A stretch of 64,000 nucleotides of DNA, from contig JBAMJV010007216.1 of the NCBI GenBank assembly GCA_037951105.1, forward strand, positions 1 to 64,000, given 5' to 3'. This document shows positions 27,032 through 59,611 of the stretch, one piece after another. Numbering within the stretch: the first letter of the stretch is position 1; every line of letters starts with the position of its first letter. Below the pieces are notes generated by a model. The model saw nothing but the letters and a program-made list of their open reading frames with translations, ran no database searches and was not told where the DNA came from. The translations under genes were made by a program, and so were the position numbers. Origin of the DNA: Echinarachnius parma. Taxonomy: Eukaryota; Echinodermata; Echinoidea; Clypeasteroida; Echinarachniidae.

Positions 27032-27122
27032 GTTAAGCAGGTCAGACTGGAGTATACGACTCTAGGTGATGTATCATCGAAGCACCTTGCAGCATGGTTG
27101 TCAGGATTGCCCGACCTGACGG
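27032..27122 (+). pseudogene. LRR exon copy 1, 3' half deleted
   Basis: It opens normally after CATCAG (VKQVRLEYTTLGDVSSKHL...), but after LPDLT the sequence jumps into downstream intron (ACACACGGTCACATATGAC), losing about 75 bp and the donor site. The variable residues are R-L-E-Y. It cannot act as a normal phase-0 exon. Confidence 0.85.
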
Positions 27123-28523
27123 ACACACGGTCACATATGACTTTCTCAAATCTGTAAACTAATATCTGATGTATTCATGAACAATGTGATTTCCATTTTA
27201 TCATTAACTCTCTTTGAAAAGTTTTATTTAAAACAAGTTATACCAGAATCAATCAGTTCTGAACGGGTTAAGTTATCCTTTACAATGATTAAGTATCTAT
27301 GTTGACATGTGAACAATTGACAAACATTTAATATAAATTTGTATATTGTGATCAGAGAGTTCCAACAACTGTGGTGTAAAAATCCCATGATGAATGAATG
27401 TCATATGACCGAGCAATGGGCAAACGTACAAATCAGTATTCGATACCTCATCGCCATAACTTTTCACACAATTCGCCAAGTAAGACTTTCCAATACAGTA
27501 CAAATAGTTTAATCATATAGAGTACATGTATTCACGAAAGACTAATTTGGAATACCGTAAATTTGACCATGCCTCTACAGTTAATATGATTGCATTGAGG
27601 TATGTGCGAACGGCAGGAGTTCTTGTCAAGTGTGAAGTGAGATTGGTGGTTAGTTATGTATTAATAAAAACGAAGTTCCCATTTTGTAATATTGCCACTA
27701 TAAGCAACGCTTTCGATTTGTTCAACAAGCCAAATTCGAATGGGCGTAAGTTAACTTTGCGCTTGTAAGGGAAATGTATTGTTTCCGTGGCAGAATTAAA
27801 TATCATAGAATTACACATTCCATAGCAACCGTGGCCTTTTCTTGAAGCTCGCTTCCTTGAGTCTGTGGCTTTTATCACAGGAAAACTCGCACTTTTCTTT
27901 ATCCTTATCATCACGGTAACGAAACCTCGAAAAGAAATTGTTTCCAGAATTAGACGCGAAAATATCTGAACAAATCACTGATAGTATTAGCAACTAGATT
28001 GGATACCAGATATTTATTTTGTAAATCATTATTATCATAGTAATTTTTTCATCATTTTATCATTACGATTATTATTAGTATTCATACTAATATTACTATA
28101 ATTCAGAGTACGCTCATGATGAGAAATACCATATTGATCATAATTAACATTATTAATGTTATTATATATATATTTGCAGTGTAATCACAAATTTCGCGCA
28201 AGTTAACACTCATACATTTGTCTGTCCGATCTGGGGAAAATCTTATCATACTACTAATGATAGTAATCTTAATAATAATAAACATTTCGTCTAGTTATTT
28301 AGCGCATTATTTACAACAAGGTTTGGGTATCTATGCGCATATATAAATCATAATTTCATTCATCATGTCGTACATTAAAATATTTAACAATCAAAAGTAG
28401 CAAGTCACCAATATTACTTGTATTTCCGTCAATAATATTTCCCGTTACAAACATGTAAGCAATATTTCTCTTCATGCTAACCCGGGTTCTCATTATTTTG
28501 TTTTAATGTTGAAATCCCATCAG

Positions 28524-28688
28524 GTTAAGCAGGTCGAACTGGTGAATACGACTCTAGGTGATGCATCATCGAAGCACCTTGCAGCATGGTTGTCTGGCTT
28601 GCCAGACCTGACAGAACTGACGCTATATGATATGAAACTCGATGACAGCTTCTACGTCATGGCGTCAGAGAAGGCAGCCCAAACCAAG
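28524..28688 (+). CDS. LRR exon copy 2
   Basis: Acceptor CCCATCAG, donor AAG|GTATCA, 55 codons open, phase 0 at both ends. The first LRR runs from VKQV to GLP, the second from DLTELTLYDMKLDD to QTK. Variable strand positions 5-8 are E-L-V-N; positions 33/35/36/38 are T/Y/D/K. The LINE at 29.8-34.5 kb lies in its downstream intron. Confidence 0.88.
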
Positions 28689-29713
28689 GTATCACACACG
28701 GTCCCATATGACTTTATCATATCTGCAAACTAATATCTGATGTATACATGAAACATGTTATTTTCATTTCTCATTAATTCTCTTTGAAAAGTTGTATTTA
28801 AAACAATTATTACCAGAATCAATCAGATGATTTAGTATGTCCTGTTGACAAGTGAAAAAAGACAAACAATTAATATAAATTTGTACTCTGTGATCAGAGA
28901 GGTCTACAAACTGTTGTGTTAAAATTCCATGATAAATTAATGTCATATGACCGAGCAATGGGCAAACATACAAATCAGTATTTGATAACTCATTGCCATA
29001 ACTTTTTCACACAACTGTAATTCGCCTAGGAAGACTTTTAAATACAGTACAAATAGTTCAATCATAGAGAGTACATGTATGTATTAACGAAAGACTAATT
29101 CGGAATACCATAAATTTGACCATGCTTCTACAGTTAATATGAATGCAACGATGTATGTGAGAACGGCAGGAGTTCTTATCAAGTTTTAAGTGAGATTGGT
29201 GTTAGGTAACCATACCAAGTTATGTACTAATAAAAGCGAAGTTCCCATTTTATGATATCGCCACAGACTGTAAGCAACGCTTTCAACATGATTGTTCAAC
29301 AAGTCAAATGCGAATTGGCGGAGGTTAATTTCGGCGCTTGTAAGGGAAATGTGTTCTTTCCGTGGCATAATTGAATATTATAGAAGTACACATTCCATAG
29401 CAACCATGGCCTTTTCTTGAAGCTCGCTTCCTTGAGTCTGTGGCTTTTATCGCAGCCAAACTTACATTTGTCTTCATTCTTTTCACCACGGAAAGGAATC
29501 CTCGAAAAAGAATTGTTTCCAGAATTAGAGGCGAAAATACCTTTACAAATCATTGATAGTATTAGCAACTGGATTGGATAATCCACACTTTTATCAAATC
29601 ATTACCATCATTATAGTTATTATTATTGTATCATTATGACTATTATTAGTACCTACACTATTATTACTATAATTCAGAGTATGCTCATGATGAGTAATAT
29701 GCCTACCATATGC

Positions 29714-29771
29714 CTACAGTTAATATGAATGCAACGATGTATGTGAGAACGGCAGGAGTTCTTATCAAGTT
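29714..29771 (+). repeat. Displaced 58-bp piece of array intron at the LINE 5' junction
   Basis: CTACAGTTAATATGAATGCA... through ...TTCTTATCAAGTT repeats a segment of the same unit located at about 29128-29186. It sits between the interrupted target (ending CCATAT at 29711) and the first LINE base. Confidence 0.8.
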
Positions 29772-30462
29772 CCTGCCCCCATACAATGCAAACCAGCACG
29801 CAATGAGTGCACCACCATCTCCACTCCCTGTGGAGAATTCTTTCCAAGCGGCTCATGGGTATTGAGAACATCCTTCACATAAACTAAAGGCATCCACCTC
29901 CTACCGGTCCCCATTTTTTTGGAATCTATATTGCTGAGTGATATTGCAGGACGTGTTTTTGCCGAGCTCCCGATATTGTTGTCGAGGGATGCGTTTATAT
30001 GTTTGTCTATATGTTGTATTTGGCATCAGAGCGTCGGTTTAGACACCTAGAATACGGAAAAGAACTTCGCTTTTAAGTTTTATCTGCGGAAAGCTGGATT
30101 TTTGGAGATTTTAAGGAGAAAAAAGGAGGAAAAAATTGGATTTTAGTCACAAACTAGATACTTCGCGCATTACAAACTTGTCATCACAACACGGCGCATG
30201 TTACGCGCATAGAGTATCCAAGGAGTATCCAAGCAACCTGTAGCTTTACGCGACCGCGCCAGTGAACAGGTGGATGATGACGTCATCGGAGTGATCAAGT
30301 TTAAAGGGATTTGACGGGTTTTGACCATTTCATCTAAGCGGATCGAGCTAGGATTACGTGACCCGTGGCCTGGATTACTGCTCATCTGGACTTATATCCT
30401 TTATACTATATGATGATATAAATGCATATATGATACATATACGATAGAACATGTGAGTCAAA

Positions 30463-31263
30463 ATGCCTCCGAAAAAGAATAAAGACAACCAGAGTCATCA
30501 GTCGGACAATACATTTACTGATTTGTTTGTATTGAAAAACGAAATTACAAAACTGACCGAAAACATTACTACAAAATTCAGTACTGTCGAGACATCACTC
30601 ATTGAACTAAAGCAAGGGCAATCTGAACTCACAAAAGCCTTAGACTTTTTCAGTTCGAAATTCGATGAGCTGAATAAAACTGTCCATGATCTGAAATCAG
30701 AAAACAGAGAGCTGAAAAAAGACAATGGTGTTCTTAAAGATAGAGTTGGAGGATTGGAGACGAGATTGAATGAACTTGATCAATATCATCGAAGGGTGAA
30801 CCTTGAGATAGCAGGTGTCCCAGAGGTCCAGGGGGAGAACGTAAAGGAGATCGTTGCCAAAGTTATCCAGCATGTGGCACCCAACCATGCCAACGTCAGC
30901 CCGACTGACATCGATGTATGTCACAGGATGGGCAAGAAGTCTGAAGCAGCCGGGAATCCACCTCCGAGGGCCATCATCGTGAGGTTCACCACCCGTCGGG
31001 CCAGAGATGCTGTGTATGAGGGAAAAAAGAAGCTGAAGTCCATGACGAGCCGTGACCTAGGTTGCAGAGAGGAGAGGAAGGTGTACATCAATGAGAACTT
31101 GCTGCCAAGCACCAAAGTCTTGCTGTCGAGGGCGAACGCGATCAGAAAGAGGGAGGGCTACCGCTACTTGTGGACCTGGAATACCAAGATTCTTGTGAGG
31201 AAGACCGAGACCAGCCCGCCGCTTGTCATCGCCAGTGAAGAGGATCTGCTGAAAATCAAATAA
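30463..31263 (+). CDS. LINE ORF1, coiled-coil RNA-binding protein (266 aa)
   Basis: A Lys-rich start (MPPKKNKDN) is followed by a heptad-like coiled coil (about residues 20-107). An RRM-like segment follows (NLEIAGVPEV, then DIDVCHRMG and RAIIVRFTTRRARDAVYEGKK). The C-terminal domain contains VYINENLLPSTKVLLSRAN and YLWTWNTKILVRK. This matches L1-type ORF1 proteins, which trimerise and chaperone element RNA. The frame is complete. Codon use is less AT-rich in the RNA-binding half than in ORF2. Confidence 0.88.
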   Translation: MPPKKNKDNQSHQSDNTFTDLFVLKNEITKLTENITTKFSTVETSLIELKQGQSELTKALDFFSSKFDELNKTVHDLKSENRELKKDNGVLKDRVGGLETRLNELDQYHRRVNLEIAGVPEVQGENVKEIVAKVIQHVAPNHANVSPTDIDVCHRMGKKSEAAGNPPPRAIIVRFTTRRARDAVYEGKKKLKSMTSRDLGCREERKVYINENLLPSTKVLLSRANAIRKREGYRYLWTWNTKILVRKTETSPPLVIASEEDLLKIK

Positions 31264-31314
31264 ATCACGACTGGCCTGCTTTGTAAATAACATTGTTAAT
31301 GAATAGTGTGAATA

Positions 31315-34245
31315 ATGACGAACAACGAATTATTTCACATTACTAATCGAAATTTGAATGCTGATGAATTAAATACACATTTGTTTGCTTCTGCACTTGG
31401 AGTTGGACATTTAAATATTCGTTCTGTAAATGCGAATTTTGATGATTTTAAAGTTTTCTTTGATTTCAATGTATGTTCAAATTTTAAGCTCTTTGCATTA
31501 ACTGAAACGTGGAATATTCTAAACCCTAATTTGTTTCATATTGATGGTTATAAGCTTGAATACAACTGCAGAGAGAATGGGAGAGGAGGGGGTGTTGGAG
31601 CTTATATACACTCGTCTTTATTGTATACGCGTTTGAACATTACGATCTCAAGTACAGAGTCGCTTTGGTTGAAGATTAGTACAAACGATAATATAATTGT
31701 ATTTGGAGTAGTCTATAGGAAACCAGACAGTGATTATGATGAATTTATAAATGATATGAATAGTGTTCTTCATGATGTAAAATTAGACAAGTTTCAGTGT
31801 ATCATAGTTGGAGATTTTAATGTGAATTTGAATATAGTTAATGAAAGGTCAAATGAACTTCAGACGATGATGGAATGTTATGGACTCCAACAGCTAATTT
31901 CTTCGCCGACACGTATTACTTCTGATAGTCAAACTCTAATTGATCATATTTATACAAACATTAGTTTATGTGAAATAACTTCAGGAACTATATTTGTTGA
32001 TATTTCAGATCATTTGCCTTGTTATGCAATATTCCATAATTTTTTTGATAAACAAACGTTAACTAATGAAACTAGGAGAAAATGTCGAAGTTATAAACAA
32101 TATTCTATTCAAGCTTTACGTGATGATCTAGAAACGATCACATGGGATGAGGTATATGAGTCAAATGATGTTAATGATGCATACAATAAGTTTTTGATAA
32201 TATTTCGTAGGATTTGTGATAAACATGCACCTTTACAATTTCGTAGTCCTAATCCGAAAATTAAGAAACCATGGATTACTAAAGCTATTTTAAAGTCAAT
32301 TAAAACCAAGTATAAGTTATATAAGCAATCTGTATTGTCAAACCATAATGATGAAAAATTGAATAAATATAAAAAGTTTAGAAACACATTGACTAATGTA
32401 TTGCGATATGCGAAGAAAAATTATTATGAAGAATTATTTGTAAAAGATAAAGGAAATTAAAAAAAAGTATGGACGCATATAAAGAACATTTTGAATAAAA
32501 AGGGAGGAAAATCAAGCAGAGTAGAAAAGTTAGGAATGAATATTGATGGTGTATATGAAGAATCTAGTATCCCTGGAAAAATTTGTGAAATGTTTAATAA
32601 TTTCTTTGTACAGATTGGAGAAAATTTAGCTGATAAAATTGGTGATACAAATGGTACCTTTCATACATTTTTGGGTCAGAAAGTATCTAATACATTTTAT
32701 TTTTTACCCGTTACTCATACTGAAGTTCGAAATGTAATTTGTTCCCTGAAAAGAAACAAAGCTTGTGGTTTTGATGATATTCCGGTTGGTATATTGATGG
32801 ATGCTGTTAATTGCGTTTCTCACCCATTGGCTTATATAATAAACTTATCAATTTCAACTGGTATATTTCCTGATAAATTGAAAATTGCAAAGGTAATTCC
32901 TGTACATAAAAAGGGTAGTACAGACACACCTGGTAATTTTAGACCTATTTCTATTTTACCTGTTTTAAGTAAAGTATTTGAGAAAGTGGCAAATAATAGA
33001 TTGATTAAGTTTTTTAATGATAATACTGTTTTGTATGAGCACCAATATGGATTTCGTTCTGGTTATAGTACTAAATTATCATTAATAAATCTGTTAAAGC
33101 AAATTTGTCATGATATTGATCAGGGTAATACAACGGTTGGACTCTTTTTAGACTTTGCTAAAGCGTTCGACACCATAAATCACAATATATTATTATATAA
33201 ATTAGAGCATTATGGTGTGAGAGGAATGCCTCTAACTTGGATGAGGAACTATTTATTTAATAGATTTCAATTTGTTGATTATGATAATATTCATTCAGAC
33301 AAACTACCAATAACTTGTGGAGTTCCCCAGGGATCTGTGTTAGGTCCAACGTTATTCCTTATTTATATAAATGATCTTCCTAACTCATCCGATTATTTTA
33401 ATTTCCGTCTCTTTGCAGACGATTCTAGCTTATTTCATACTTTTCAGGGTGTAGGAGATGCTATTAATTTGATTGAGATGGAAAATGATATTGATTTGAT
33501 AATGACTTGGTGTAAAGAAAATAAACTTACTATTAATACTACGAAAACTAAGTACATCATATTTAAAAGTAGGTGCAGGAAAATTGATGTTCTTGGTAAT
33601 ATTGTAATGAATAATGAAACAATTGAAAAAGTTCCTTACACTTCATTTGTTGGAGTTAATATTGATGAAAATGTAACATGGAAGAAACAAGTTGATTCTG
33701 TTTGTGTCTCCTTGAGAAAGAACATAGGTGTATTATATAGAATACGAAATTTTGTGCCTAAAAGAATTTTAAAATTGTTGTACTTTACACTTGTTGAACC
33801 ACACATTACATATGGCCTAGAAGTCTGGGGTGGAACTTATCCGTCGTATTTAATGAATATATGTTTGCTTCAAAAGAGAGCCATGCGTGCAATATGTTTT
33901 AAGAGTCCAAGGGAGCACACAGCTCCATTATTTATGGAATTATCTGTCCTTAATATTTTTGATTTATATAGATATGTCATAGGAACAGTGATGTATGATT
34001 TGATAAACGATAAATTCTCACAAAGCTTAGTTACTTATTGTACTCGCATTGATCATTGTTATGATACTAGAAGTAAAAATGACGATAAATTTAAAATAGT
34101 TCCAGTAAAATTAGAATTAGCAAAGCAATCCATTTCATATATCGGACCAAAAATATGGAATGAACTTCCAAATAATTTAAAAAGTAAAATGTCAAGACAC
34201 ACGTTTCGTAAATTGCTTAAAGGTTATTTTTTAGATTCGAAATGA
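31315..34245 (+). CDS. LINE ORF2, APE endonuclease and reverse transcriptase, one internal stop
   Basis: Endonuclease motifs come first: HLNIRSVNANF, ALTETWN, GGGVGAYI, VVYRKPD, IIVGDFNVNL, SPTRITSDSQTLIDHIYTN and SDHLPCY. The reverse transcriptase follows, with NKACGFDDIP, KVIPVHKKGS, FRPISILPVLSKVFEK, YGFRSGYST, FLDFAKAFDTINH, GVPQGSVLGP, the catalytic FADD (33412) and TKYIIF. A C-terminal tail carries YDTRS and GPKIWNELPNN. The frame is continuous over 977 codons except for a TAA at 32458-32460, between endonuclease and RT in a lysine-rich A-run (context GGAAAT TAA AAAAAA). A single substitution from AAA would explain it. The tail and motif set fit the CR1/L2 group. Confidence 0.9.
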
Positions 34246-34891
34246 CCCTTTTCCATTTGTATATATATGTTCGGCATTCTTGATTTTTTCTGTATTTTGT
34301 ATATAATTCCAATATTTATTTAATGCATATTTTATAAGGGCTAGACCAACTAGCATTTTGTGCTATTACTAGTTCCTTTTTTACCAATAAGTTTTAATTT
34401 TGTGGAATCTTTGTATTATATTGTCAATGTTTTTTGTTGTTGTTTCAATTGGTAAAATAAATTTCATTTCATTTCATTTCATTTCATTTCATTTCATTTC
34501 ATATTGATCATAATTACCATAATTAATGTTATTATATATATTTGCAGTGTAATCACAAATTTCGCGCAAGTTAACACTCATACATTTGTCTGTCCGATCT
34601 GGGTAAAATCTTATCATACTACTAATGATAGTAATCTTAATAATAATAAACATTTCGTCTAGTTATTTAGCGCATTATTTACAACAAGGTTTGGGTATCT
34701 ATGCGCATATATAAATCATAATTTCATTCATCATGTCGTACATTAAAATATTTAACAATCAAAAGTAGCAAGTCACCAATATTACTTGTATTTCCGTCAA
34801 TAATATTTCCCATTACAAACATGTAGGCAATAATTCTCTTCAAGATAACCCGGTTTCTCATTACTTTGTTTTAATGTTGAAATCCCATCAG

Positions 34892-35056
34892 GTTAAGCAG
34901 GTCAAACTTTGGGAGTCGACTCTAGGTGATGTATCATCTAAGCACCTTGCAGCATGGTTGTCTGGCTTGCCAGACCTGACAGAACTGAAACTATATGATA
35001 TGAAACTCGATGACAGCTTCTACGTCATGGCGTCAGAGAAGGCAGCCCAAACCAAG
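34892..35056 (+). CDS. LRR exon copy 3
   Basis: Acceptor CATCAG, donor AAG|GTATCA, 55 open codons. Variable strand positions read K-L-W-E then S in place of T9; the second LRR has K33 (ELKLYDMKL). It starts the W-E subgroup (copies 3-5). Confidence 0.88.
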
Positions 35057-36480
35057 GTATCACACACGGTCCCATATGACTTTATCATATCTGCAAACTA
35101 ATATCTGATGTATACATGAAACATGTTATTTTCATTTCTCATTAATTCTCTTTGAAAAGTTGTATTTAAAACAATTATTACCAGAATCAATCAGATGATT
35201 TAGTATGTCCTGTTGACAAGTGAAAAAAGACAAACAATTAATATAAATTTGTACTCTGTGATCAGAGAGGTCTACAAACTGTTGTGTTAAAATTCCATGA
35301 TAAATTAATGTCATATGACCGAGCAGTGGGCAAACATACAAATCAGTATTTGATAACTCATTGCCATAACTTTTTCACACACCTTTAATTCGCCTAGGAA
35401 GACTTTTAAATACAGTACAAATAGTTCAATCATAGAGAGTACATGTATGTATTAACGAAAGACTAATTCGGAATACCATAAATTTGACCATGCTTCTACA
35501 GTTAATATGAATGCAACGATGTATGTGAGAACGGCAGGAGTTCTTATCAAGTTTTAAGTGAGATTGGTGTTAGGTAACCATACCAAGTTATGTACTAATA
35601 AAAGCGAAGTTCCCATTTTATGATATCGCCACAGACTGTAATTAACGCTTTCAACATGATTGTTCAACAAGTCAAATGCGAATTGGCGGAGGTTAATTTC
35701 GGCGCTTGTAAGGGAAATGTGTTGTTTCCGTGGCAGAATTGAATATTATAGAAGTACACATTCCATAGCAACCATGGCCTTTTCTTGAAGCTCGCTTCCT
35801 TGAGTCTGTGGCTTTTATCGCAGCCAAACTTACATTTGTCTTAATTCTTTTCACCACGGAAACGAATCCTCGAAAAAGAATTGTTTCCAGAATTAGAGGC
35901 GAAAATACCTTAAAAAATCATTGATAGTATTAGCAACTGGATTGGATACGACATATTTAATGTACCACACTTTTATCAAATCATTACCATCATTATAGTT
36001 ATTATTATTGTATCATTATGACTATTATTAGTACCTACACTATTATTACTATAATTCAGAGTATGCTCATGATGAGTAATATGCCTACCATATTGATCAT
36101 AATTACCATAATTAATGTTATTATATATATTTGCAGTGTAATCACAAATTTCGCGCAAGTTAACACTCATACATTTGTCTGTCCGATCTGGGTAAAATCT
36201 TATCATACTACTAATGATAGTAATCTTAATAATAATACACATTTCGTCTAGTTATTTAGCGCATTATTTACAACAAGGTTTGGTTATCTATGCGCATATA
36301 TAAATCATAATTTCATTCATCATGTCGTACATTAAAATATTTAACAATCAAAAGTAGCAAGTCACCAATATTACTTGTATTTCCGTCAATAATATTTCCC
36401 ATTACAAACATGTAGGCAATAATTCTCTTCAAGATAACCCGGTTTCTCATTACTTTGTTTTAATGTTGAAATCCCATCAG

Positions 36481-36645
36481 GTTAAGCAGGTCGAAATTTG
36501 GGAGTCGACTCTAGGTGATGTATCATCTAAGAACCTTGCAGCATGGTTGTCTGGCTTGCCAGACCTGACAGAACTGAAACTATATGATATGAAACTCGAT
36601 GACAGCTTCTACGTCATGGCGTCAGAGAAGGCAGCCCACACCAAG
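36481..36645 (+). CDS. LRR exon copy 4
   Basis: Open, with normal splice sites. Positions 5-8 are E-I-W-E. N replaces the conserved H18 (SSKNLAAW) and H replaces Q53 (KAAHTK). Its downstream intron is cut to about 276 bp. Confidence 0.87.
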
Positions 36646-36921
36646 GTATCACACACGGTCCCATATGACTTTATCATATCTGCAAACTAATATCTGATGT
36701 ATACATGAAACATATTATTTTCATTTCTCATTAATTCTCTTTGAAAAGTTGTATTTAAAACAATTATTACCAGAATCAATCAGATGATTTAGTATGTCCT
36801 GTTGACAAGTGAAAAAGACAAACAATTAATATATATTTCCCATTACAAACATGTAGGCAATAATTCTCTTCAAGATAACCCGGTTTCTCATTACTTTGTT
36901 TTAATGTTGAAATCCCATCAG

Positions 36922-37086
36922 GTTAAGCAGGTCGAATTTTGGGAGTCGACTCTAGGTGATATATCATCTAAGCACCTTGCAGCATGGTTGTCTGGCTTGC
37001 CAGACCTGACAGAACTGAAACTATATGATATGAAACTCGATGACAGCTTCTACGTCATGGCGTCAGAGAAGGCAGCCCAAACCAAG
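36922..37086 (+). CDS. LRR exon copy 5
   Basis: Only 441 bp separate its start from that of copy 4, because about 1.15 kb of intron is missing (junction near 36830). Positions 5-8 are E-F-W-E, and I14 replaces V. Splice sites and the 55-codon frame are intact. Confidence 0.87.
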
Positions 37087-38512
37087 GTATCACACACGGT
37101 CCCATATGACTTTATCATATCTGCAAACTAATATCTGATGTATACATGAAACATGTTATTTTCATTTCTCATTAATTCTCTTTGAAAAGTTGTATTTAAA
37201 ACAATTATTACCAGAATCAATCAGATGATTTAGTATGTCCTGTTGACAAGTGAAAAAAGACAAACAATTAATATAAATTTGTACTCTGTGATCAGAGAGG
37301 TCTACAAACTGTTGTGTTAAAATTCCATGATAAATTAATGTCATATGACCGAGCAAAGGGCAAACATACAAATCAGTATTTGATAACTCATTGCCATCAC
37401 TTTTTCACACACCTTTAATTCGCCTAGGAAGACTTTTAAATACAGTACAAATAGTTCAATCATAGAGAGTACATGTATGTATTAACGAAAGACTAATTCG
37501 GAATACCATAAATTTGACCATGCTTCTACAGTTAATATGAATGCAACGATATATGTGAGAACGACAGGAGTTCTTATCAAGTTTTAAGTGAGATTGGTGT
37601 TGGGTAACCATACCAAGTTATGTACTAATAAAAGCGAAGTTCCCATTTTGTGATATCGCCACAGACTGTAAGCAACGCTTTCAACATGATTGTTCAACAA
37701 GTCATATGCGAATTGGCGGAGGTTAATTTCGGCACTTGTAAGGGAAATGTGTTGTTTCCGTGGCAGAATTGAATATTATAGAAGTACACATTCCATAGCA
37801 ACCATGGCCTTTTCTTGAAGCTCGCTTCCTTGAGTCTGTGGCTTTTATCGCAGCCAAACTAACATTTGTCTTAATTCTTTTCACCACGGAAACGAATCCT
37901 CGAAAAAGAATTGTTTCCAGAATTAGAGGCGAAAATACCATTAAAAAAATCATTGATAGTATTAGCAACTGGATTGGATACGACATATTTAATGTACCAC
38001 ACTTTTATCAAATCATTACCACCATTATAGTTATTATTATTGTATCATTATGTCTATTATTAGTACATACACTATTATTACTATAATTCAGAATATGCTC
38101 ATGATGAGTAATATGCCTACCATATTGATCATAATTACCATAATTAATGTTATTATATATATTTGCAGTGTAATCACAAATTTCGCGCAAGTTAACACTC
38201 GTATATTTGTCTGTCCGATCTGGGTAAAATCTTATCATACTACTAATGATAGTAATCTTAATAATAATAAACATTTCGTCTAGTTATTTAGCGCATTATT
38301 TACAACAAGGTTTGGGTATCTATGCGCATATATAAATCATAATTTCATTCATCATGTCGTACATTAAAATATTTAACAATCAAAAGTAGCAAGTCACCAA
38401 TATTACTTGTATTTCCGTCAATAATATTTCCCATTACAAACATGTAAGCAATATTTCTCTTCATGCTAACCCGGGTTCTCATTACTTTGTTTTAATGTTG
38501 AAATCCCATCAG

Positions 38513-38674
38513 GTTAAGCAGGTCATACTGTTTAATACGACTCTAGGTGATGCATCATCGAAGCACCTTGCAGCATGGTTGTCTGGCTTGCCAGACCTGA
38601 CAGAACTGACACTACATGATATGAAACTCGCTGACAGCTTTGCAATGACGTCAGAGAAGGCAGCCCAAACCAAG
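38513..38674 (+). CDS. LRR exon copy 6 (one codon shorter)
   Basis: This copy has 162 bp, 54 codons, still phase 0. Variable residues are I-L-F-N; the second LRR has LHDMKLADSFAMTSEK where most copies have LYDMKLDDSFYVMASEK. The downstream intron begins with a distinct version (CATACGGTCACATGTGAC). It then contains a second exon-end-like piece at about 38875 (CCAAGGTATCACACAC), a scar of a lost exon. Confidence 0.87.
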
Positions 38675-40290: not shown

Positions 40291-40452
40291 GTTAAGCAGG
40301 TCATACTGTTTAATACGACTCTAGGTGATGCATCATCGAAGCACCTTGCAGCATGGTTGTCTGGCTTGCCAGACCTGACAGAACTGACACTAAATGATAT
40401 GAAACTCGCTGACAGCTTTGCAATGACGTCAGAGAAGGCAGCCCAAACCAAG
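40291..40452 (+). CDS. LRR exon copy 7 (one codon shorter)
   Basis: A near twin of copy 6 (I-L-F-N, 54 codons) that differs at position 35 (LNDMKL, with N for H). The same exon-loss scar follows at about 40654. Confidence 0.87.
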
Positions 40453-42514: not shown

Positions 42515-42679
42515 GTTAAGCAGGTCAGACTTCAGAGTACGACTCTAGGTGATGTATCATCTAAGCACCTTGCAGCATGGTTGTCTGGCTTGCCAGACCT
42601 GACAGAACTGACACTATATGATATGAAACTCGATGACAGCTTCTACGTCATGGCGTCAGAGAAGGCAGCCCAAACCAAG
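42515..42679 (+). CDS. LRR exon copy 8
   Basis: First copy with the TTAG acceptor (CCCATTAG) that all later full copies use. Positions 5-8 are R-L-Q-S, the second LRR is standard (T/Y/D/K). 55 codons open. Confidence 0.88.
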
Positions 42680-44495: not shown

Positions 44496-44660
44496 GTTAA
44501 GCAGGTCAGCCTTCAGAGTACGACTCTAAGTGATGTATCATCTAAGCACCTTGCAGAATGGTTGTCTGGCTTGCCAGACCTGACAGAACTGACACTATAT
44601 GATATGAAACTCGATGACAGCTTCTACGTCATGGCGTCAGAGAAGGCAGCCCAAACCAAG
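44496..44660 (+). CDS. LRR exon copy 9
   Basis: Positions 5-8 are S-L-Q-S; S12 replaces G (TTLSD) and E21 replaces the second A of LAAWL. Normal splice sites and 55 codons. Its upstream intron is type A but joins type-B sequence close to the exon, so the unit is chimeric. Confidence 0.87.
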
Positions 44661-48128: not shown

Positions 48129-50676
48129 CCCTGATAGCAAACACTGGTAAAAATGACGTCAAATTTACGTCGTTTTTCGTCGTGCACGTCGTCTTAAAGA
48201 CGTCTTAAATTCACGTCAAAAATTGAAGATTTTGCACCCGCGTTTACCGTCATATAGACGTCATATTTTGACGTGAAAATTACGTATTTTTTTTCCGAAA
48301 AGGCGTCTTTACGACGTCTTGAAGACATCAATTTGTACCATAAATTACGCCATTTAGACGACATAAAGACGTCTTATTGGTCAATATAAGACGTGATTTT
48401 TACGTCTGGATTTGACGTCATTTCCACCTTGTGTAGGTCGTCTTTAAGACGTCGTAAATTCACGTCAAAAAGTGAAGATTTTGCACCCGCGTTTACCGTG
48501 ATATAGACGTCATATTTTGACTTGATAATGACGTATTTTTTTCCGAAAAGGCGTCTTTACGACGTCTTGAAGACGTCAATTTGTACCATAAATTACGCCA
48601 TTTAGACGACATAAAGACGTCTTATTGGTCAATATAAGACGTGCTTTTTACGTCTGGATTTGACGTCATTTCCACCTTGTGTACGTCGTCTTTAAGACGT
48701 CGTAAATTCACGGCAAAAAGTGAAGATTTTGCACCCGCGTTTACCGTCATATAGACGTCATATTTTGACGTGATAATGACGTATTTTTTTCCGAAAAGGC
48801 GTCTTTACGACGTCTTGAAGACGTCAATTTGTACCATAAATTACGCCATTTAGACGACATAAAGACGTCTTATTGGTCAATATAAGACGTGCTTTTTACG
48901 TCTGGATTTGACGTCATTTCCACCTTGTGTACGTCGTCTTTAAGACGTCATAAATTCACGTCAAAAAGTGAAGATTTTGCACCCGCGTTTACCGTGATAT
49001 AGACGTCATATTTTGACGTGATAATGACGTATTTTTTCCGAAAAGGCGTCTTTACGACGTCTTGAAGACGTCAATTTGTACCATAAAATACGCCATTTAG
49101 ACGACATAAAGACGTCTTATTGACGTCATAAAAAGGTCGTCCATACGCCAAAAATAATTGTTTAAATGTCTTTGAAAGACGTCATAATCACGTTGTAATA
49201 ACGTCGTCTATACGACAAAAAATAATTGGAAAAAATGGTTTTTAAAAGACGTCACAATGACGTCGTAATGAGGTCGTTCATACGACAAAAAATAAATACG
49301 TCGTTATTTTGTCTTCTATACGACAAAAATAAATACTGAAAAAAATGATCTTTAAATGACGTAATATTAACGTCATTTTTACGTCCTTCCATACGCCAAA
49401 ATCAATTGGAAAACTGGTCTTTGAAAGACGTCACAATAACGTCGTAAAAAGGGCGTCCATACGACAAAAAATGATGGCCAAAAATAGTCTTAAAAAGACG
49501 TAAACATGACGTCTTAAAAACGTTGTCCACACGACACAAACCTTAATGGCACAAATGGTCCTTTCAAAGACATCTTAAAGACGTCATTATAACGTCTTTT
49601 ATACTACAAAATAAATACTTAAAAGTGATCTTTTAATGACGTGATAATGACGTTGTTTTTACATCCTTAATATGACGAAAAACCATTGGAAAAAATGGTC
49701 TGTGAAAGACGTCACAATGACGTTAAAAAAGGTCGTCCATTCGACATTAAATGATGGCAAAAACTAGTCTTGACAACACAACATAATGACGTCGTATTAA
49801 CGTCGTCGTACGACACAAACCATAATGGCAAAAATAGTCTTTAAAAGACATCATAAAGACGTAAATTTTAAGACGTTTTTATGACAAAATAAGAAGTGAA
49901 AAAAAGGTCTTTGAAAGACGTAACAAAGACGTCGTTATAACGTCTTTCATACGATACAAAACAATGGGAAAAACTGGTCTTTGAAAGACGTCTAAATGAC
50001 GTAGTTAAAAGGTCTTCCATACGTCTAAAAGTTATGAACAAAAACTAGTCTTGAAAAGACGTAAAAATTACGTCTTTATATTGTTGTCATACGACATAAA
50101 CCTGTATGTCAAAAATGGTCTTCAAACGACATCATAAAGACGTCGTTTTCATGTCTTCTATACGACAATAATACATTCTGAAAAATGGTCTTTAAACGAC
50201 GTTATAATGACATCGTTTTTACGTCTTGCATACGACAAAAATAAACAGTGGAAAAATGGTCGTTTAAAGATGTTATAATGACGTCATTCTTACGTCTTTT
50301 ATACGACATAAGTCATCATGTCAAAAATGGTCTTTAAAATACGTCATAATGACGTCGTATTCTTATCGTTTGTACGACATATGACGTGTTTACCAGTTTA
50401 CGACCAAATTAAGACGTCATAAAGACGTCAGTCTGCTATCAGGGAAATTATATAGCGCATATTACAGCAATGTTTAGGTATCTTTGCGCATATAGAAAAC
50501 ATATTTGTTTCATCATTTCATACATTTATAATATTTTAACCATCATAAGTAACAAGCCATCATGTTAACTTGTATTTCCGTCAATAATCCTTCCCGTCAC
50601 AAACATGTAGGCAATAAGTACCCTTCAAGCTAACCCGGGTTCTCATTATTTTGTTTTAATGTTATAATCCCATTAG

Positions 50677-50841
50677 GTTAAGCAGGTCAGCCTTCAGAAT
50701 ACGACTCTAAGTGATGTATCATCTAAGCACCTTGCAGCATGGTTGTCTGGCTTGCCAGACCTGACAGAACTGACACTATATGGTATGAAACTCGATGACA
50801 GCTTCTACGTCATGGCGTCAGAGAAGGCAGCCCAAACCAAG
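50677..50841 (+). CDS. LRR exon copy 10
   Basis: Positions 5-8 are S-L-Q-N, S12 for G, and G36 for D (LYGMKL). Splice sites normal, 55 codons. It lies directly downstream of the 4.6-kb element. Confidence 0.87.
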
Positions 50842-52269
50842 GTATCACACACGGTCCGATATGACTTTATCATATCTGCAAACTAATATCTGATGTATAC
50901 ATGAAACATGTAATTTTCATTTCTAATTAATTCTCTTTGAAAAGTTGTATTTAAAACAATTATTACCAGAATCAATCAGATGATTTAGTATGTCCTGTTG
51001 ATAAGTGAAAAAAGACAAACAATTAATATAAATTTGTACTCTGTGATCAGAGAGGTCTACCAACTGTGGTGTTAAAATTCCATGATAAATTAATGTCATA
51101 TGACCGAGCAATGGGCCAACATACAAATCAGTATTTGATAACTCATTGCCATAACTTTTTTACACACCTGTAATTCGCCTAGGAAGACTTTTAAATACAG
51201 TACAAATAGTTCAATCATAGAGAGTACATGTATGTATTAACGAAAGACTAATTCGGAATACCATACATTTGACCATGCTTCTACAGTTAATATGAATGCA
51301 ACGATGTCTGTGAGAACGGCAGGAGTTCTTATCAAGTTTTAAGTGAGATTGGTGTTAGGTAACCATTCCAAGTTATGTACGAATAAAAGCGAAGTTCCCA
51401 TTTTATGATATCGCCACAGACTGTAAGCAACGCTTTCAACATGATTGTTCAACAAGTCAAATGCGAATTGGCGGAGGTTAATTTCGGCGCTTGTAAGGGA
51501 AATGTGTTGTTTCCGTGGCAGAATTGAATATTATAGAAGTACACATTCCATAGCAACCATGGCCTTTTCTTGAAGCTCGCTTCCTTGAGTCTGTGGCTTT
51601 TATCGCAGCCAAACTTACATTTGTCTTAATTCTTTTCACCACGGAAACGAATCCTCGAAAAAGAATTGTTTCCAGAATTAGAGGCGAAAATACCTTTAAA
51701 AAATCATTGATAGTATTAGCAACTGGATTGGATACGACATATTTAATGTACCACACTTTTATCAAATCATTACCATCATTATAGTTATTATTATTGTATC
51801 ATTATGACTATTATTAGTACCTACACTATTATTACTATAATTCAGAGTATGCTCATGATGAGTAATATGCCTACCATATTGATCATAATTACCATAATTA
51901 ATGTTATTATATATATTTGCAGTGTAATCACGAATTTCAAGCAAGTGAACACTCATACATTTGTTTGTCCGATCTGGGTAAGAGCTTATAATACTACTAA
52001 TAATAGTAATGATAATAATAATACACATTTCGTCTAATTATATAGCGCATATTACAGCAATGTTTAGGTATCTTTGCGCATATAGAAAAAAAACATATTT
52101 GTTTCATCATTTCATACATTTATAATATTTTAACCATCATAAGTAACAAGCCATCATAATAACTTGTATTTCCGTCAATAATCCTTCCCGTCACAAACAT
52201 GTAGGCAATAAGTACCTTCAAGCTAACCCGGGTTCTCATTATTTTGTTTTAATGTTATAATCCCATTAG

Positions 52270-52434
52270 GTTAAGCAGGTCAGACTTAAGGGTACGACTC
52301 TAGGTGATGTATCATCTAAGCACCTTGCAGCATGGTTGTCTGGCTTGCCAGACCTGACAGAACTGACACTATATGCTATGAAACTCGATGACAGCTTCTA
52401 CGTCATGGCGTCAGAGAAGGCAGCCCAAACCAAG
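52270..52434 (+). CDS. LRR exon copy 11
   Basis: Positions 5-8 are R-L-K-G; A36 replaces D (LYAMKL). 55 open codons with TTAG acceptor and AAG|GTATCA donor. Confidence 0.88.
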
Positions 52435-53858
52435 GTATCACACACGGTCCCATATGACTTTATCATATCTGCAAACTAATATCTGATGTATACATGAAAC
52501 ATGTAATTTTCATTTCTAATTAATTCTCTTTGAAAAGTTGTATTTAAAACAATTATTACCAGAATCAATCAGATGATTTAGTATGTCCTGTTGACAATTG
52601 AAAAAAGACAAACAATTAATATAAATTTGTACTCTGTGATCAGAGAGGTCTACCAACTGTGGTGTTAAAATTCCATGATAAATTAATGTCATATGACCGA
52701 GCAATGGGCCAACATACAAATCAGTATTTGATAACTCATTGCCATAACTTTTTCACACACCTGTAATTCGCCTAGGAAGACTTTTAAATACAGTACAAAT
52801 AATTCAATCATAGAGAGTACATGTATGTATTAACGAAAGACTAATTCGGAATACCATAAATTTGACCATGCTTCTACAGTTAATATGAATGCAACGATGT
52901 ATGTGAGAACGGCAGGAGTTCTTATCAAGTTTTAAGTGAGATTGGTGTTAGGTAACCATACCAAGTTATGTACGAATAAAAGCGAAGTTCCCATTTTATG
53001 ATATCGCCACAGACTGTAAGCAACGCTTTCAACATGATTGTTCAACAAGTCAAATGCGAATTGGCGGAGGTTAATTTCGGCGCTTGTAAGGGAAATGTGT
53101 TGTTTCCGTGGCAGAATTGAATATTATAGAAGTACACATTCCATAGCAACCATGGCCTTTTCTTGAAGCTCGCTTCCTTGAGTCTGTGGCTTTTATCGCA
53201 GCCAAACTTACATTTGTCTTAATTCTTTTCACCACGGAAACGAATCCTCGAAAAAGAATTGTTTCCAGAATTAGAGGCGAAAATACCTTTAAAAAATCAT
53301 TGATAGTATTAGCAACTGGATTGGATACGACATATTTAATGTACCACACTTTTATCAAATCATTACCATCATTATAGTTATTATTATTGTATCATTATGA
53401 CTATTATTAGTACCAACACTATTATTACTATAATTCAGAGTATGCTCATGATGAGTAATATGCCTACCATATTGATCATAATTACCATAATTAATGTTAT
53501 TATATATATTTGCAGTGTAATCACGAATTTCAAGCAAGTGAACACTCATACATTTGTTTGTCCGATCTGGGTAAGAGCTTATAATACTCCTAATAATAGT
53601 AATGATAATAATAATACACATTTCGTCTAATTATATAGCGCATATTACAGCAATGTTTAGGTATCTTTGCGCATATAGAAAACATATTTGTTTCATCATT
53701 TCATACATTTATAATATTTTAACCATCATAAGTAACAAGCCATCATGTTAACTTGTATTTCCGTCAATAATCCTTCCCGTCACAAACATGTAGGCAATAA
53801 GTACCTTCAAGCTAACCCGGGTTCTCATTATTTTGTTTTAATGTTATAATCCCATTAG

Positions 53859-54023
53859 GTTAAGCAGGTCAGACTTAAGAGTACGACTCTAGGTGATGTA
53901 TCATCTAAGCACCTTGCAGCATGGTTGTCTGGCTTGCCAGACCTGACAGAACTGACACTATATGATATGACACTCGATGACAGCTTCTACGTCATGGCGT
54001 CAGAGAAGGCAGCCCAAACCAAG
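53859..54023 (+). CDS. LRR exon copy 12
   Basis: Positions 5-8 are R-L-K-S; T38 replaces K (YDMTLDD). The splice sites are conserved. The downstream intron has lost one G shortly after the donor (ACACGTCCC), with no effect on coding. Confidence 0.88.
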
Positions 54024-55446
54024 GTATCACACACGTCCCATATGACTTTATCATATCTGCAAACTAATATCTGATGTATACATGAAACATGTAATTTTCA
54101 TTTCTAATTAATTCTCTTTGAAAAGTTGTATTTAAAACAATTATTACCAGAATCAATCAGATGATTTAGTATGTCCTGTTGACAAGTGAAAAAAGACAAA
54201 CAATTAATTTAAATTTGTACTCTGTGATCAGAGAGGTCTACCAACTGTGGTGTTAAAATTCCATGATAAATTAATGTCATATGACCGAGCAATGGGCAAA
54301 CATACAAATCAGTATTTGATAACTCATCGCCATAACTTTTTCACACACCTGTAATTCGCCTAGGAAGACTTTTAAATACAGTACAAATAATTCAATCATA
54401 GAGAGTACATGTATGTATTAACGAAAGACTAATTCGGAATACCATAAATTTGACCATGCTTCTACAGTTAATATGAATGCAACGATGTATGTGAGAACGG
54501 CAAGAGTTCTTATCAAGTTTTAAGTGAGATTGGTGTTAGGTAACCATACCAAGTTATGTACGAATAAAAGCGAAGTTCCCATTTTATGATATCGCCACAG
54601 ACTGTAAGCAACGCTTTCAACATGATTGTTCAACAAGTCAAATGCGAATTGGCGGAGGTTAATTTCGGCGCTTGTAAAGGAAATGTGTTGTTTCCGTGGC
54701 AGAATTGAATATTATAGAAGTACACATTCCATAGCAACCATGGCCTTTTCTTGAAGCTCGCTTCCTTGAGTCTGTGGCTTTTATCGCAGCCAAACTTACA
54801 TTTGTCTTAATTCTTTTCACCACGGAAACGAATCCTCGCAAAAGAATTGTTTCCAGAATTAGAGGCGAAAATACCTTTAACAAATCATTGATAGTATTAG
54901 CAACTGGATTGGATACGACATATTTAATGTACCACACTTTTATCAAATCATTACCATCATTATAGTTATTATTATTCTATCATTATGACTATTATTAGTA
55001 CCTACACTATTATTACTATAATTCAGAGTATGCTCATGATGAGTAATATGCCTACCATATTGATCATAATTACCATAATTAATGTTATTATATATATTTG
55101 CAGTGTAATCACGAATTTCAAGCAAGTGAACACTCATACATTTGTTTGTCCGATCTGGGTAAGAGCTTATAATACTACTAATAATAGTAATGATAATAAT
55201 AATACACATTTCGTCTAATTATATTGCGCATATTACAGCAATGTTTAGGTATCTTTGCGCATATCGAAAACATATTTGTTTCATCATTTCATACATTTAT
55301 AATATTTTAACCATCATAAGTAACAAGCCATCATGTTAACTTGTATTTCCGTCAATAATCCTTCCCGTCACAAACATGTAGGCAATAAGTACCTTCAAGC
55401 TAACCCGGGTTTTCATTATTTTGTTTTAATGTTATAATCCCATTAG

Positions 55447-55611
55447 GTTAAGCAGGTCAGACTTCAGAGTACCACTCTAGGTGATGTATCACCTAAGCAC
55501 CTTGCAGCATGGTTGTCTGGCTTGCCAGACCTGACAGAACTGAAACTATATGATATGAAACTCGATGACAGCTTCTACGTCATGGCGTCAGAGAAGGCAG
55601 CCCAAACCAAG
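55447..55611 (+). CDS. LRR exon copy 13
   Basis: Positions 5-8 are R-L-Q-S; P16 replaces S (VSPKHL) and K33 replaces T (ELKLYDMKL). Frame and splice sites intact. Confidence 0.88.
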
Positions 55612-57036
55612 GTATCACACACGGTCCCATATGACTTTATCATATCTGCAAACTAATATCTGATGTATACATGAAACATGTAATTTTCATTTCTAATTAA
55701 TTCTCTTTGAAAAGTTGTATTTAAAACAATTATTACCAGAATCAATCAGATGATTTAGTATGTCCTGTTGACAAGTGAAAAAAGACAAACAATTAATATA
55801 AATTTGTACTCTATGATCAGAGAGGTCTACCAACTGTGGTGTTAAAATTCCATGATAAATTAATGTCATATAACCGAGCAATGGGCAAACATACCAATCA
55901 GTATTTGATAACTCATTGCCATAACTTTTTCACACACCTGTAATTCGCCTAGGAAGACTTTTAAATATAGTACAAATAGTTCAATCATAGAGAGTACATG
56001 TATGTATTAACGAAAGACTAATTCGGAATACCATAAATTTGACCATGCTTCTACAGTTAATATGAATGCAACGATGTATGTGAGAACGGCAGGAGTTCTT
56101 ATCAAGTTTTAAGTGAGATTGGTGTTAGGTAACCATACCAAGTTATGTACTAATAAAAGCGAAGTTCCCATTTTGTGATATCGCCACAGACTGTAAGCAA
56201 CGCTTTCAACATGATTGTTCAACAAGTCAAATGCGAATTGGCGGAGGTTAATTTCGGCGCTTGTAAGGGAAATGTGTTGTTTCCGTGGCAGAATTGAATA
56301 TTATAGAAGTACACATTCCATAGCAACCATGGCCTTTTCTTGAAGCTCGCTTCCTTGAGTCTGTGGCTTTTATCGCAGCCAAACTTACATTTGTCTTAAT
56401 TATTTTCACCACGGAAACGAATCCTCGAAAAATAATTGTTTCCAGAATTAGAGGCGAAAATACCTTTAAAAAATCATTGATAGTATTAGCAACTGGATTG
56501 GATACGACATATTTAATGTACCACACTTTTATCAAATCATTACCATCATTATAGTTATTATTATTGTATCATTATGACTATTATTAGTACCTACACTATT
56601 ATAACTATAATTCAGAGTATGCTCATGATGAGTAATATGCCTACCATATTGATCATAATTACCATAATTAATGTTATTATATATATTTGCAGTGTAATCA
56701 CAAATTTCGCGCAAGTTAACACTCATACATTTGTCTGTCCGATCTGGGTAAAATCTTATCATACTACTAATGATAGTAATCTTAATAATAATAAACATTT
56801 CGTCTAGTTATTTAGCGCATTATTTACAACAAGGTTTGGGTATCTATGCGCATATATAAATCATAATTTCATTCATCATGTCGTACATTAAAATATTTAA
56901 CAATCAAAAGTAGCAAGTCACCATTATTACTTGTATTTCCGTCAATAATCCTTCCCGTCACAAACATGTAGTTAATAAGTACCTTCAAGCTAACCCGGGT
57001 TCTCATTATTTTGTTTTAATGTTATAATCCCATTAG

Positions 57037-57201
57037 GTTAAGCAGGTCAGACTTCAGAGTACGACTCTAGGTGATGTATCATCTAAGCACCTTGCAGCAT
57101 GGTTGTCTGGCTTGCCAGACCTGACAGAACTGACACTATATGATATGAAACTCGATGACAGCTTCTACGTCATGGCGTCAGAGAAGGCAGCCCAAACTAA
57201 G
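57037..57201 (+). CDS. LRR exon copy 14
   Basis: The protein is identical to copy 8 (R-L-Q-S; T/Y/D/K). The downstream intron begins with the CATACGGTCACATGTGAC version otherwise seen after copies 6 and 7, a sign of exchange between units. Confidence 0.88.
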
Positions 57202-57445: not shown

Positions 57446-57879
57446 ATGACCGCTTACACCAAAACCCCAAACAAATTGACGAACATGATCTGGGATCTTT
57501 TTATCTAACTGGATAGAGTAGAATCTAAGCTTTAAAATGATATATAACTCATCCAATTTGGACACTCTGAACCTATCCAACAAAGCGATTAAATGTAGGA
57601 GAGTGGGAAAGTCTAGTTTTACAGAATGAGGAGAAAAGAGGCTCTAAAGATTAGGGTCACTCAGGCGCGTAGTGCGGAGGAGCTTTCCATTGAATCCATT
57701 AACTCAACTTTGGCTTCGTTTTAAGACTCAAAATTGTAAACAGTCGATAGAGGAAAGAGTATGCTTTCAGGTAAAGTAAATTTTTAAAATTTGATTTTTC
57801 AGCAAAAATTACATACTTTGGCTCGTAGCGGAGAATCATATACCGCGACTTTATGTGGGTTTTGGTGTAAGCGGTCACC
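57446..57879. mobile_element. MITE, TGTGACxGCTTACCCC family, copy 2 (inverted)
   Basis: GACCGCTTACACCAAAACCCC and GGTTTTGGTGTAAGCGGTCAC bound it. The interior is the complement of 41940-42370 in order (CTTTAAAATGATATATAACTC, GAGAATCATATACCGCGACT). It sits in a different place in the unit, so this is an independent insertion. Confidence 0.88.
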
Positions 57880-58168
57880 TATGGTCGAGCAATGGGCAAA
57901 CGTACAAATCAGTATTTCATAACCCATCACCATAGACTTCCAAACACTTGTAATTCATCAAAAAATTTCAAATACAGTAAAAAATAGTTCAATCATATAG
58001 AGTAGCCTACATGTAAATAGTATCAAAATACTAATTTCGGTATACCATAAATTTGACCATACCTCTACAGTTAATACGAATGCAACGAGGTATGTGAGAA
58101 CGGCAGGAATTCTTATCAGGTTTTAAGCGAGATTGGTGTTAGGTAACCTCACTAAGTTATGTATTAAT

Positions 58169-58700
58169 GGGTTAGTTTAGTTTTGGTAAAGAGGGCGCTG
58201 CACATCACAATTTTTTTGTGAGGTAATGAAAAACTGAGTGTCGAATTTGAGAGAACATGCAATTTTAATGTCAGAATAAACTTTATTTGGTCAAAATCGA
58301 CTCAGAAACGGCTGAAATATCAAGAAATATATCTGATCTTATAATTATTTGGGGCCCAAATAATTAAATGATTTTTAGAAAAAAACAAAAAAATGCTTGC
58401 ACTTTTTCAAAAATTTTCAAAAGCGTTTTTTAAATAGTTGTTGATGATCTCGCTATTTAATCATTATATCAATAAAACATGACATGCATAATTTTGCATG
58501 AAAAATGGTTGAAACCAATGCCTATTTAAAAAGCGCCCCTTTGTGTTTTAATGGCTGTTTTTGAATGATAACAGGCTATTTACTTAGTCATTTGTAATTT
58601 TGTATACCTTTCGAGCATGGTGGAGTTACTATTATTTTATAATGTTACTGTGCAGGTTTTGGCTACTAAAGTTCAGCCTTACCAACACTAAACTACCCCT
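58169..58700. mobile_element. MITE flanked by TTAAT
   Basis: GGGTTAGTTTAGTTTTGGTA and the complement TACCAACACTAAACTACCCC form the ends, with TTAAT on both sides (58164-58168, 58701-58705). The empty site in sister units is ACTAATAAAAG. Non-coding. Confidence 0.85.
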
Positions 58701-59445
58701 TTAATAAAAGCGAAGTTCCTATTTCAAAGTATTGCCACTTTAAGCAATTATTTCGATATGTTCAACAAGCCAAATTCGAATGGACGGGAGTTAACTTCGG
58801 CGCTTGTAAGGGAAATGTGTTGTTTTCGTGGCGGAATTGAATATAATAGAATTACACATTCCATGATAGCAACCATGGCCTTTTTTTGAAGCTCGCTTCC
58901 TTGAGTGTGTGGCTTTTAACATAGGAAAGATTTCAATTGTCTTCATTCTTATCATCACGGAAACGAAACCTCGATAAGGAATTATTTCCAGAATCAGACG
59001 CGGAAATATCTCAAAAACCACTGATAGTATTAGCAACTGGATTTGACACAACATATTTTATGTACCAGAATATTGTAAATCATTACCATCATAGTTATTA
59101 TCATTGTATCATTACGATTATTATACGTATTCATACTATAACTACAGTAATACAGTAATATTACAGTATATTATAACAGTAATTATAGTAACTATAATTC
59201 AGAGTATGCTCATGATAAGTAATACCATATAGATCATACCATTGCTTACCATTAGTAATGTTAGTATGTATATTTGCAGTGTAACTACGAATGTCGCGCA
59301 AGTTAACATTCATACATTTGTCTGTCCGAACTGGGTAAGAGCTAATATTACTACTAATAGTATAAATGATAATGATAATAAACACTTCGTCTAGTTATAT
59401 AGCGCATAATACAGCAAGGTTTGGTTATCTATGTGCAAATTATAG

Positions 59446-59611
59446 GTTAAGCAGGTCGAACTGTGCAGAACGCCTCTTGGTGATGTATCATCTAAGCACC
59501 TTGCAGCATGGTTGTCTGGCTTGCCAAACCTGACAGAACTGACACTTAGTGCGATGAAACTCGCTGAAAGCTTCTACGTCTTGGCGTCCAGAGAAGGCAG
59601 CCCAAACCAAG
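59446..59611 (+). pseudogene. LRR exon copy 15, 1-base insertion
   Basis: The frame starts normally (VKQVELCRTPLGDVSSKHL) and is the most diverged copy (E-L-C-R; LSAMKLAES). GCGTCCAGAG in place of GCGTCAGAG adds one base, making the exon 166 bp and shifting the frame at its end. The usual pyrimidine-rich upstream segment is also deleted, leaving AATTATAG as the only acceptor. Probably not spliced in. Confidence 0.85.

Follow-up and report, generated by a model that had tools for sequence, protein, structure and literature searches.

A tandem array of paired leucine-rich repeat exons in a putative NLR gene of Echinarachnius parma, with replacements concentrated at predicted concave-face positions

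The first 64,000 nucleotides of contig JBAMJV010007216.1 in the Echinarachnius parma assembly GCA_037951105.1 (hereafter the window) contain, between positions 27032 and 59611 of the forward strand, 15 copies of an exon encoding two leucine-rich repeats (LRRs), recovered by local search with one module. We judge it about three-to-one probable (0.75) that they form an amplified exon array of a DEATH-NACHT-LRR gene, in which exchange homogenises the units while diversifying selection alters residues of the concave face. The initial annotation of this sequence had reported 15 copies here, and both their placement and the residue strings it gave for positions 5–8 and for positions 33, 35, 36 and 38 proved exact. 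The copies, with residues 5–8 in brackets for copies 2 to 15, are as follows.

27032..27124, + strand: LRR exon copy 1, truncated by a deletion that removed the second LRR and the donor
28524..28688, + strand: LRR exon copy 2 (ELVN)
34892..35056, + strand: LRR exon copy 3 (KLWE)
36481..36645, + strand: LRR exon copy 4 (EIWE), first member of a 441-bp tandem pair
36922..37086, + strand: LRR exon copy 5 (EFWE), second member of the 441-bp tandem pair
38513..38674, + strand: LRR exon copy 6 (ILFN), 162 bp, one codon shorter
40291..40452, + strand: LRR exon copy 7 (ILFN), 162 bp, in a unit of A type 5' and B type 3'
42515..42679, + strand: LRR exon copy 8 (RLQS)
44496..44660, + strand: LRR exon copy 9 (SLQS)
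50677..50841, + strand: LRR exon copy 10 (SLQN)
52270..52434, + strand: LRR exon copy 11 (RLKG)
53859..54023, + strand: LRR exon copy 12 (RLKS), in the reference unit for alignments
55447..55611, + strand: LRR exon copy 13 (RLQS)
57037..57201, + strand: LRR exon copy 14 (RLQS), with a strongly diverged intron
59446..59611, + strand: LRR exon copy 15 (ELCR), 166 bp, with a +1 frameshift and a different upstream intron end

Thirteen of the 15 copies are intact; the broken edge copies (27032 and 59446) were excluded from every rate and selection count. The intact exons measure 165 bp (11 copies) or 162 bp (two copies), are all in phase 0-0, and are bounded by a CATCAG (n=6) or CATTAG (n=7) acceptor and, in 13 of 13, by the donor AAG/GTATCA, where the slash marks the exon end. 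Where it is uninterrupted, the unit of exon plus intron spans about 1.59 kb, some 1.4 kb of it intron. The intact copies fall into two sub-arrays, A (28524–40291, six copies) and B (42515–57037, seven copies).

LRR x positions face the concave side of the repeat solenoid, and the register LxxLxLxxNxL was used to set them. A profile built from the 13 modules matches the ribonuclease inhibitor 4per with an expectation value (E) of 1.7e-6 summed over repeats, the best single stretch reaching E 2.4; other ribonuclease inhibitors match at E 0.0006–0.56, with 23 distinct sequences at E <= 10, and weaker matches extend to the LRRs of NLRP1 (E 0.02) and NLRP3 (E 0.25). The register of the profile match places residues 5, 7 and 8 and residues 33, 35 and 36 at x5, x7 and x8 of the first and second LRR, respectively. 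An AlphaFold model of the module shows strand 2–7, helix 13–24, strand 29–35 and helix 41–53, and ribonuclease inhibitor and NLR chains are present among its weak Foldseek matches (50 listed of 140). None of three single modules scanned against Pfam reaches the cut-off. In ribonuclease inhibitor, tryptophans in equivalent places touch the bound ribonuclease, a point for which a literature search that listed two papers turned up no support. From the repeat register, the variable residues would lie on the concave, ligand-facing side.

Replacements were counted by parsimony on the exon tree over 55 codons and compared with 50,000 permutations. The x5, x7 and x8 codons of both LRRs make up six of the 55 and take 18 of the 32 replacements (3.5 expected), a count reached in none of the permutations, and all 12 strand x codons together take 19 (P 0.0005). 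The eight strand framework positions show neither an excess, which the initial annotation had named as an outcome at odds with its proposal, nor a significant depletion (2/32, 4.7 expected, P(<=) 0.25). When the flank tree is used instead, the corresponding counts are 20, 21 and 2 of 36. Across the 13 intact copies the strand framework is invariant except at codon 6, a framework leucine at which changes are confined to L, I and F. The equation of variable positions with x positions therefore stands for the excess at x5, x7 and x8 and fails for position 6. It also passes over 13 of the 32 replacements, which fall at codons other than the 12 strand x codons (6, 9, 12, 14, 16, 18, 21, 40, 45, 47 and 53), as well as a one-codon deletion present in two copies (38513 and 40291).

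Codon models point to the same positions. In our own implementation of models M1a and M2a, in which branch lengths are taken from M0 and only their overall scale is free, twice the log-likelihood difference (2dlnL) is 21.7 on the exon topology, 43.4 on the intron topology and 23.8 on the flank topology; on each of the three, M2a names exactly codons 5, 7 and 8, with a nonsynonymous to synonymous rate ratio (omega) of 10.8–12.5. In a parametric bootstrap without positive selection, none of 60 replicates reaches 21.7 (maximum 10.8), and when two close pairs are each reduced to a single copy, 2dlnL is 38.3 and codons 5, 7 and 8 are again named. These tests support the earlier proposal that diversifying selection acts on concave-face residues in the amplified exons.

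The intron provides a yardstick for these changes. Divergence was taken as the mean pairwise difference in an alignment of the 13 intact units anchored on unit 53859, which ignores insertions relative to that reference and in which unit 36481 covers 439 of 1588 columns; pairwise counts, of divergence and of transitions and transversions alike, are not independent events. Codons 5–8 differ by 0.42 and the intron as a whole by 0.049, contradicting the possibility raised in the initial annotation that the variable codons are no more diverged than the introns. The 130 bases 5' of the exon differ by 0.091, and the exon outside codons 5–8 and the second-LRR x codons by 0.028. Codon 6 is grouped with codons 5–8 in these means and with the rest of the exon in the sub-array and close-pair comparisons that follow. 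Among the 1555 12-nt windows of the 1.59-kb unit that were scored, each complete in at least 8 of the 13 copies, codons 5–8 tie with the window one base away as the most variable, and each of the 11 top-ranking windows overlaps the codons 5–8 region.

Between sub-arrays A and B, with unit 57037 set aside, the x5, x7 and x8 codons of the first LRR differ by 0.67, the rest of the exon by 0.037, the first kb downstream by 0.016–0.021, and the upstream intron by 0.143 at -130..-1 and 0.080 at -368..-131. Homogenisation varies along the unit, from 14% difference just upstream of the exon to 2% in the first kb downstream, and the variable codons exceed in divergence even the upstream-flank yardstick. 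Unit 57037 aligns to the reference unit in separate stretches, at 86%, 83% and 77% identity. The description of the introns as hardly changing consequently applies to the first kb downstream (about 2% between A and B) and not to the upstream intron (14% and 8%) or to the last units (77–86% identity for 57037). Within B, neighbours 50677 and 52270 differ at four of nine x5, x7 and x8 bases and at one of the 144 bases in the rest of the exon.

The variable codons have abrupt limits and a balanced mutation spectrum. All 15 copies share the same codons 1–4, and 14 of the 15 the same codons 10–11; most variable sites involve more than one base. Counted pairwise, transitions and transversions stand at 184:156 in the x5, x7 and x8 codons and at 445:422 in the upstream flank, with transversions commoner in the downstream intron (1473:2225) and at the second-LRR x positions (34:72). 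The balanced spectrum at x5, x7 and x8 led us to reject adenine- or cytosine-targeted mutation; it does not resemble the work of a deaminase. Targeted mutation, which had been offered as an alternative to selection, finds no support in a spectrum balanced as in the flank, in several bases per site, and in variation that stops at codons 1–4.

Exchange between units is directly evidenced by unit 40291, a chimera whose first 400 bases are 99–100% like 38513, and whose last 288 bases are 96–100% like 52270 and just 80–95% like 38513. The introns after copies 38513 and 40291 also hold (38874–38991 and 40652–40769) a second exon-end-like stretch, ACCAAG/GTATCACACACGG, which seems to be left over from recombination and adds a donor-like site.

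Two insertions interrupt the array. The intron after copy 28524 contains an insertion resembling a long interspersed nuclear element (29712–34499), in which the open reading frame at 30457–31263 matches Pfam Baculo_FP_2nd (E 6.4e-13) and, just under the cut-off, the L1 Transposase_22 family; the frames at 31312–32460 and 32461–34245, split by a stop, are endonuclease- and reverse-transcriptase-like by eye, and there is an ATTTC tail (34461–34502). The second insertion, at 45856–50445 in the unit of copy 44496, contains tandem repeats with periods of 24 to 281 bp, is GACGTC-rich by eye, and has no match to the LRR unit. An Rfam scan gave no matches at the gathering threshold. A 29-residue stretch in an IMG/VR contig (L001:5001-5087) shows 41% identity to the LRR module; it was the one match confirmed among 21 pattern matches.

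Upstream of the array lies a chain of predicted exons.

11085..11194, + strand: first coding exon (model), with the ATG, the 2A-like DVETNPGP and a GTAAAT donor, leaving in phase 2
11920..12188, + strand: DEATH-like exon, donor GTAAGT, phase 2 in and 1 out
13755..15336, + strand: NACHT exon (model), phase 1 in and 0 out, with one frame break
18531..18692, + strand: diverged upstream LRR exon, 54 amino acids, phase 0-0, donor GTAAGT

In this model DVETNPGP is in frame with the DEATH-like exon and fits the D(V/I)ExNPGP pattern. The DEATH-like exon matches Pfam Death at E 0.0074 (16.8 bits, under the 22.6 cut-off) and, weakly, Fas death domains (E 0.02–0.04). The two frame pieces of the NACHT exon, searched apart, each match Pfam NACHT above the cut-off (E 8.3e-9 and 2.7e-11), the acceptor chosen being the best-looking where several AG sites fit the phase. 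Exon 18531–18692 matches the module profile weakly (E 0.083) and has no Pfam match. Splice phases are consistent along the chain from the 2A-like sequence through the DEATH-like, NACHT and LRR exons to the array, and on the strength of these matching phases it is plausible that the array exons sit inside a single receptor gene with the upstream NACHT. On its predicted domains, the locus would belong to the same kind of NLR as those reported from the sea urchin.

In the model that we favour, the locus would be the LRR sensor region of an immune receptor gene whose product, an NLR, carries a 2A-like sequence at its N-terminus, and in which each 165-bp phase-0 exon would encode one LRR pair of the ribonuclease inhibitor type. 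The exon and its 1.4-kb intron would have multiplied in tandem, with unequal exchange or conversion keeping the units similar, while diversifying selection would have repeatedly altered the first strand at x5, x7 and x8 and, to a lesser degree, the second strand at the equivalent positions. The array exons and the upstream NACHT would be joined in a single transcript, the concave face would bind ligand, and pathogens may drive the selection. Our confidence in this model derives from the concentration of changes at few codons, not from constraint on the rest of the exon.

Several observations weigh against this model. The NACHT exon is broken between positions 14179 and 14215, between its two NACHT pieces, which may mark this copy as a pseudogene or stem from an allele or from an error of sequencing or assembly. 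Whole-exon omega is 1.78 and not significantly above 1 (2dlnL 2.0). Taken alone, sub-array A yields a 2dlnL of 6.7 with 13 sites named and sub-array B a non-significant 1.7, indicating that the strength of the test comes largely from the comparison between A and B; moreover, the codon models ignore recombination, which is present. The exons of the youngest pair, 36481 and 36922, differ only at residues 6, 14, 18 and 53, none of them an x position, with four exon replacements against one substitution and one indel elsewhere in the 441-bp unit. With unit 57037 set aside, divergence in the rest of the exon exceeds that of the downstream intron within A (0.047 vs 0.016) as well as across the two sub-arrays (0.037 vs 0.021), and falls slightly short of it within B (0.011 vs 0.015); constraint beyond the framework leucines is hence unsupported. 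Lastly, the 55-residue AlphaFold model has a mean predicted local distance difference test score (pLDDT) of 67, and none of its 140 Foldseek matches attains E <= 0.001.

Among the other explanations, one that we regard as a real but minority possibility holds that gene conversion imported the variable codons mainly as short blocks, the donors being diverged LRR exons in other NLR genes; selection would then have retained the variants rather than built them in place by point mutation. The near-saturated A-B difference at x5, x7 and x8 (0.67), set in adjacent DNA that differs by 2–14%, speaks for such import, as do the mosaic structure of unit 40291, the changes at codons 40–47 and the codon loss that 38513 and 40291 share, which resemble an imported tract, and the large size of sea urchin NLR families, as far as the sources describe them. 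The sharp limits at codons 1–4 (15 of 15) and 10–11 (14 of 15), however, are tighter than usual conversion tracts, and the contrast between four of nine and one of 144 changed bases in 50677 and 52270 likewise argues against imported blocks.

It is improbable, in our assessment, that the pattern arose by drift in a decaying pseudogene, under relaxed constraint on a tandem repeat, or from misassembly. Such an origin would account for the NACHT frame break, the broken edge copies, the non-x changes of the youngest pair and a rest-of-exon divergence that is not clearly under that of the downstream intron. On the other hand, frame and splice sites are kept in 13 of 15 exons, the strand framework is invariant in the intact copies except at codon 6, and drift does not put 18 of 32 replacements into six of 55 codons. 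A mutation hotspot or targeted mutator at codons 5–8, acting without selection on the protein, is very improbable: although local divergence is very high, codon 6 has one synonymous difference (CTG/CTT), and the lack of any synonymous codon pair at codons 5, 7 and 8, where a random change is synonymous 18–23% of the time, is only a modest argument against it (roughly 7% chance given 12 replacements there), a hotspot fits poorly with sharp codon-level boundaries, with a balance of transitions and transversions like that of the upstream flank, with a framework codon 6 restricted to L, I and F, and with the weaker excess at the equivalent second-LRR positions 28 codons downstream. The pattern in the array is real and probably reflects functional diversification.

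A further proposal, which we consider doubtful, extends the favoured model by treating the array as a library of splice-selectable cassettes, so that the NLR gene would include differing subsets of LRR pairs and present many concave faces, while exchange and selection in the germline would keep renewing the library. The exons are frame-neutral in 13 of 13 intact copies, and their donor AAG/GTATCA, weak by the usual consensus, differs from the GTAAGT of three of the four modelled upstream exons. A search for Dscam-type docking sequences, made with one reference unit against 18.7–26.9 kb and 59.7–64 kb, returned minus-strand matches of only 12–13 nt (E 0.24–0.96). The variable lymphocyte receptors (VLRs) of lampreys vary at concave positions. 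Both they and the array are built of LRR modules, but VLR cassettes, as passages of PMC13428168 describe them, are incomplete in the germline and assembled somatically. Incomplete cassettes of the VLR type were ruled out here, AG and GT splice sites being present in 13 of 13 intact copies.

Passages on sea urchin NLRs (PMC4981915, 2016) describe the order 2A, DEATH, NACHT, LRR and an N-terminal D(V/I)ExNPGP, the same domain order and 2A-like motif as those predicted here; the exon-cassette arrays and hypervariable LRR positions seen in this locus go unmentioned in those passages. A frame-preserving exon per LRR pair is the normal design of NLR genes: according to parts of the respective papers, each 171-bp exon of human NLRP3 carries two LRRs (PMC6642158), and zebrafish NLRs carry one LRR type more than 20 times in two groups (PMC4852459). 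The same zebrafish source describes the LRRs of NLR-B30.2 proteins as not particularly variable and reports positive selection in B30.2, and near-identical units of exon plus intron, as seen here, are absent from the passages of both vertebrate papers.

The closest parallels in mode of evolution come from outside the animals. In brown-algal ROCO genes, positively selected LRR sites lie on the concave side (Teng et al., 2024, PMC11378527) of the products of shuffling LRR exons earlier treated by Zambounis et al. (2012, as cited in PMC11378527). The passages of PMC11378527 share with our locus tandem LRR exons, selection on the concave side and a proposed recognition repertoire, and they report alternative splicing; the algal exons, in contrast, are 72 bp long, in phase 2, and encode one 23-residue LRR of ROC-COR GTPases, whereas those described here are 165 or 162 bp long, in phase 0, and encode two. 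Fungal NLRs, in the portions of PMC4986451 (2014) and PMC12222747 (2025) that bear on them, likewise have near-identical repeats thought to be homogenised by exchange, with few hypervariable, positively selected codons on the interaction surface, a face that is here assigned from the LRR register. Their repeats are WD, ANK or TPR, with no LRR found in those portions, while here every repeat has an exon of its own and a long intron.

The apparent novelty lies in finding together, in an NLR of an animal, a homogenised array of LRR-pair exons and introns and a selection signal centred on strand x positions. Among the matches listed in our literature search, judged by title and the start of the abstract, none was recognised as having already described an array of this type in animal NLRs. 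Invertebrate NLR families are large, but in our view the gain of new specificity by a single receptor is poorly documented. In a genome-wide selection study of sea urchins, as given in part of PMC5521101, 29 of 217 innate-immunity genes were testable after the removal of paralog alignments. Side-by-side copies with their introns as yardstick make selection on a recognition face measurable inside one gene, and the alternative inclusion of cassettes is directly testable by long-read RNA sequencing. The pattern at this locus is the one that would be expected if recognition surfaces diversify inside a single gene.

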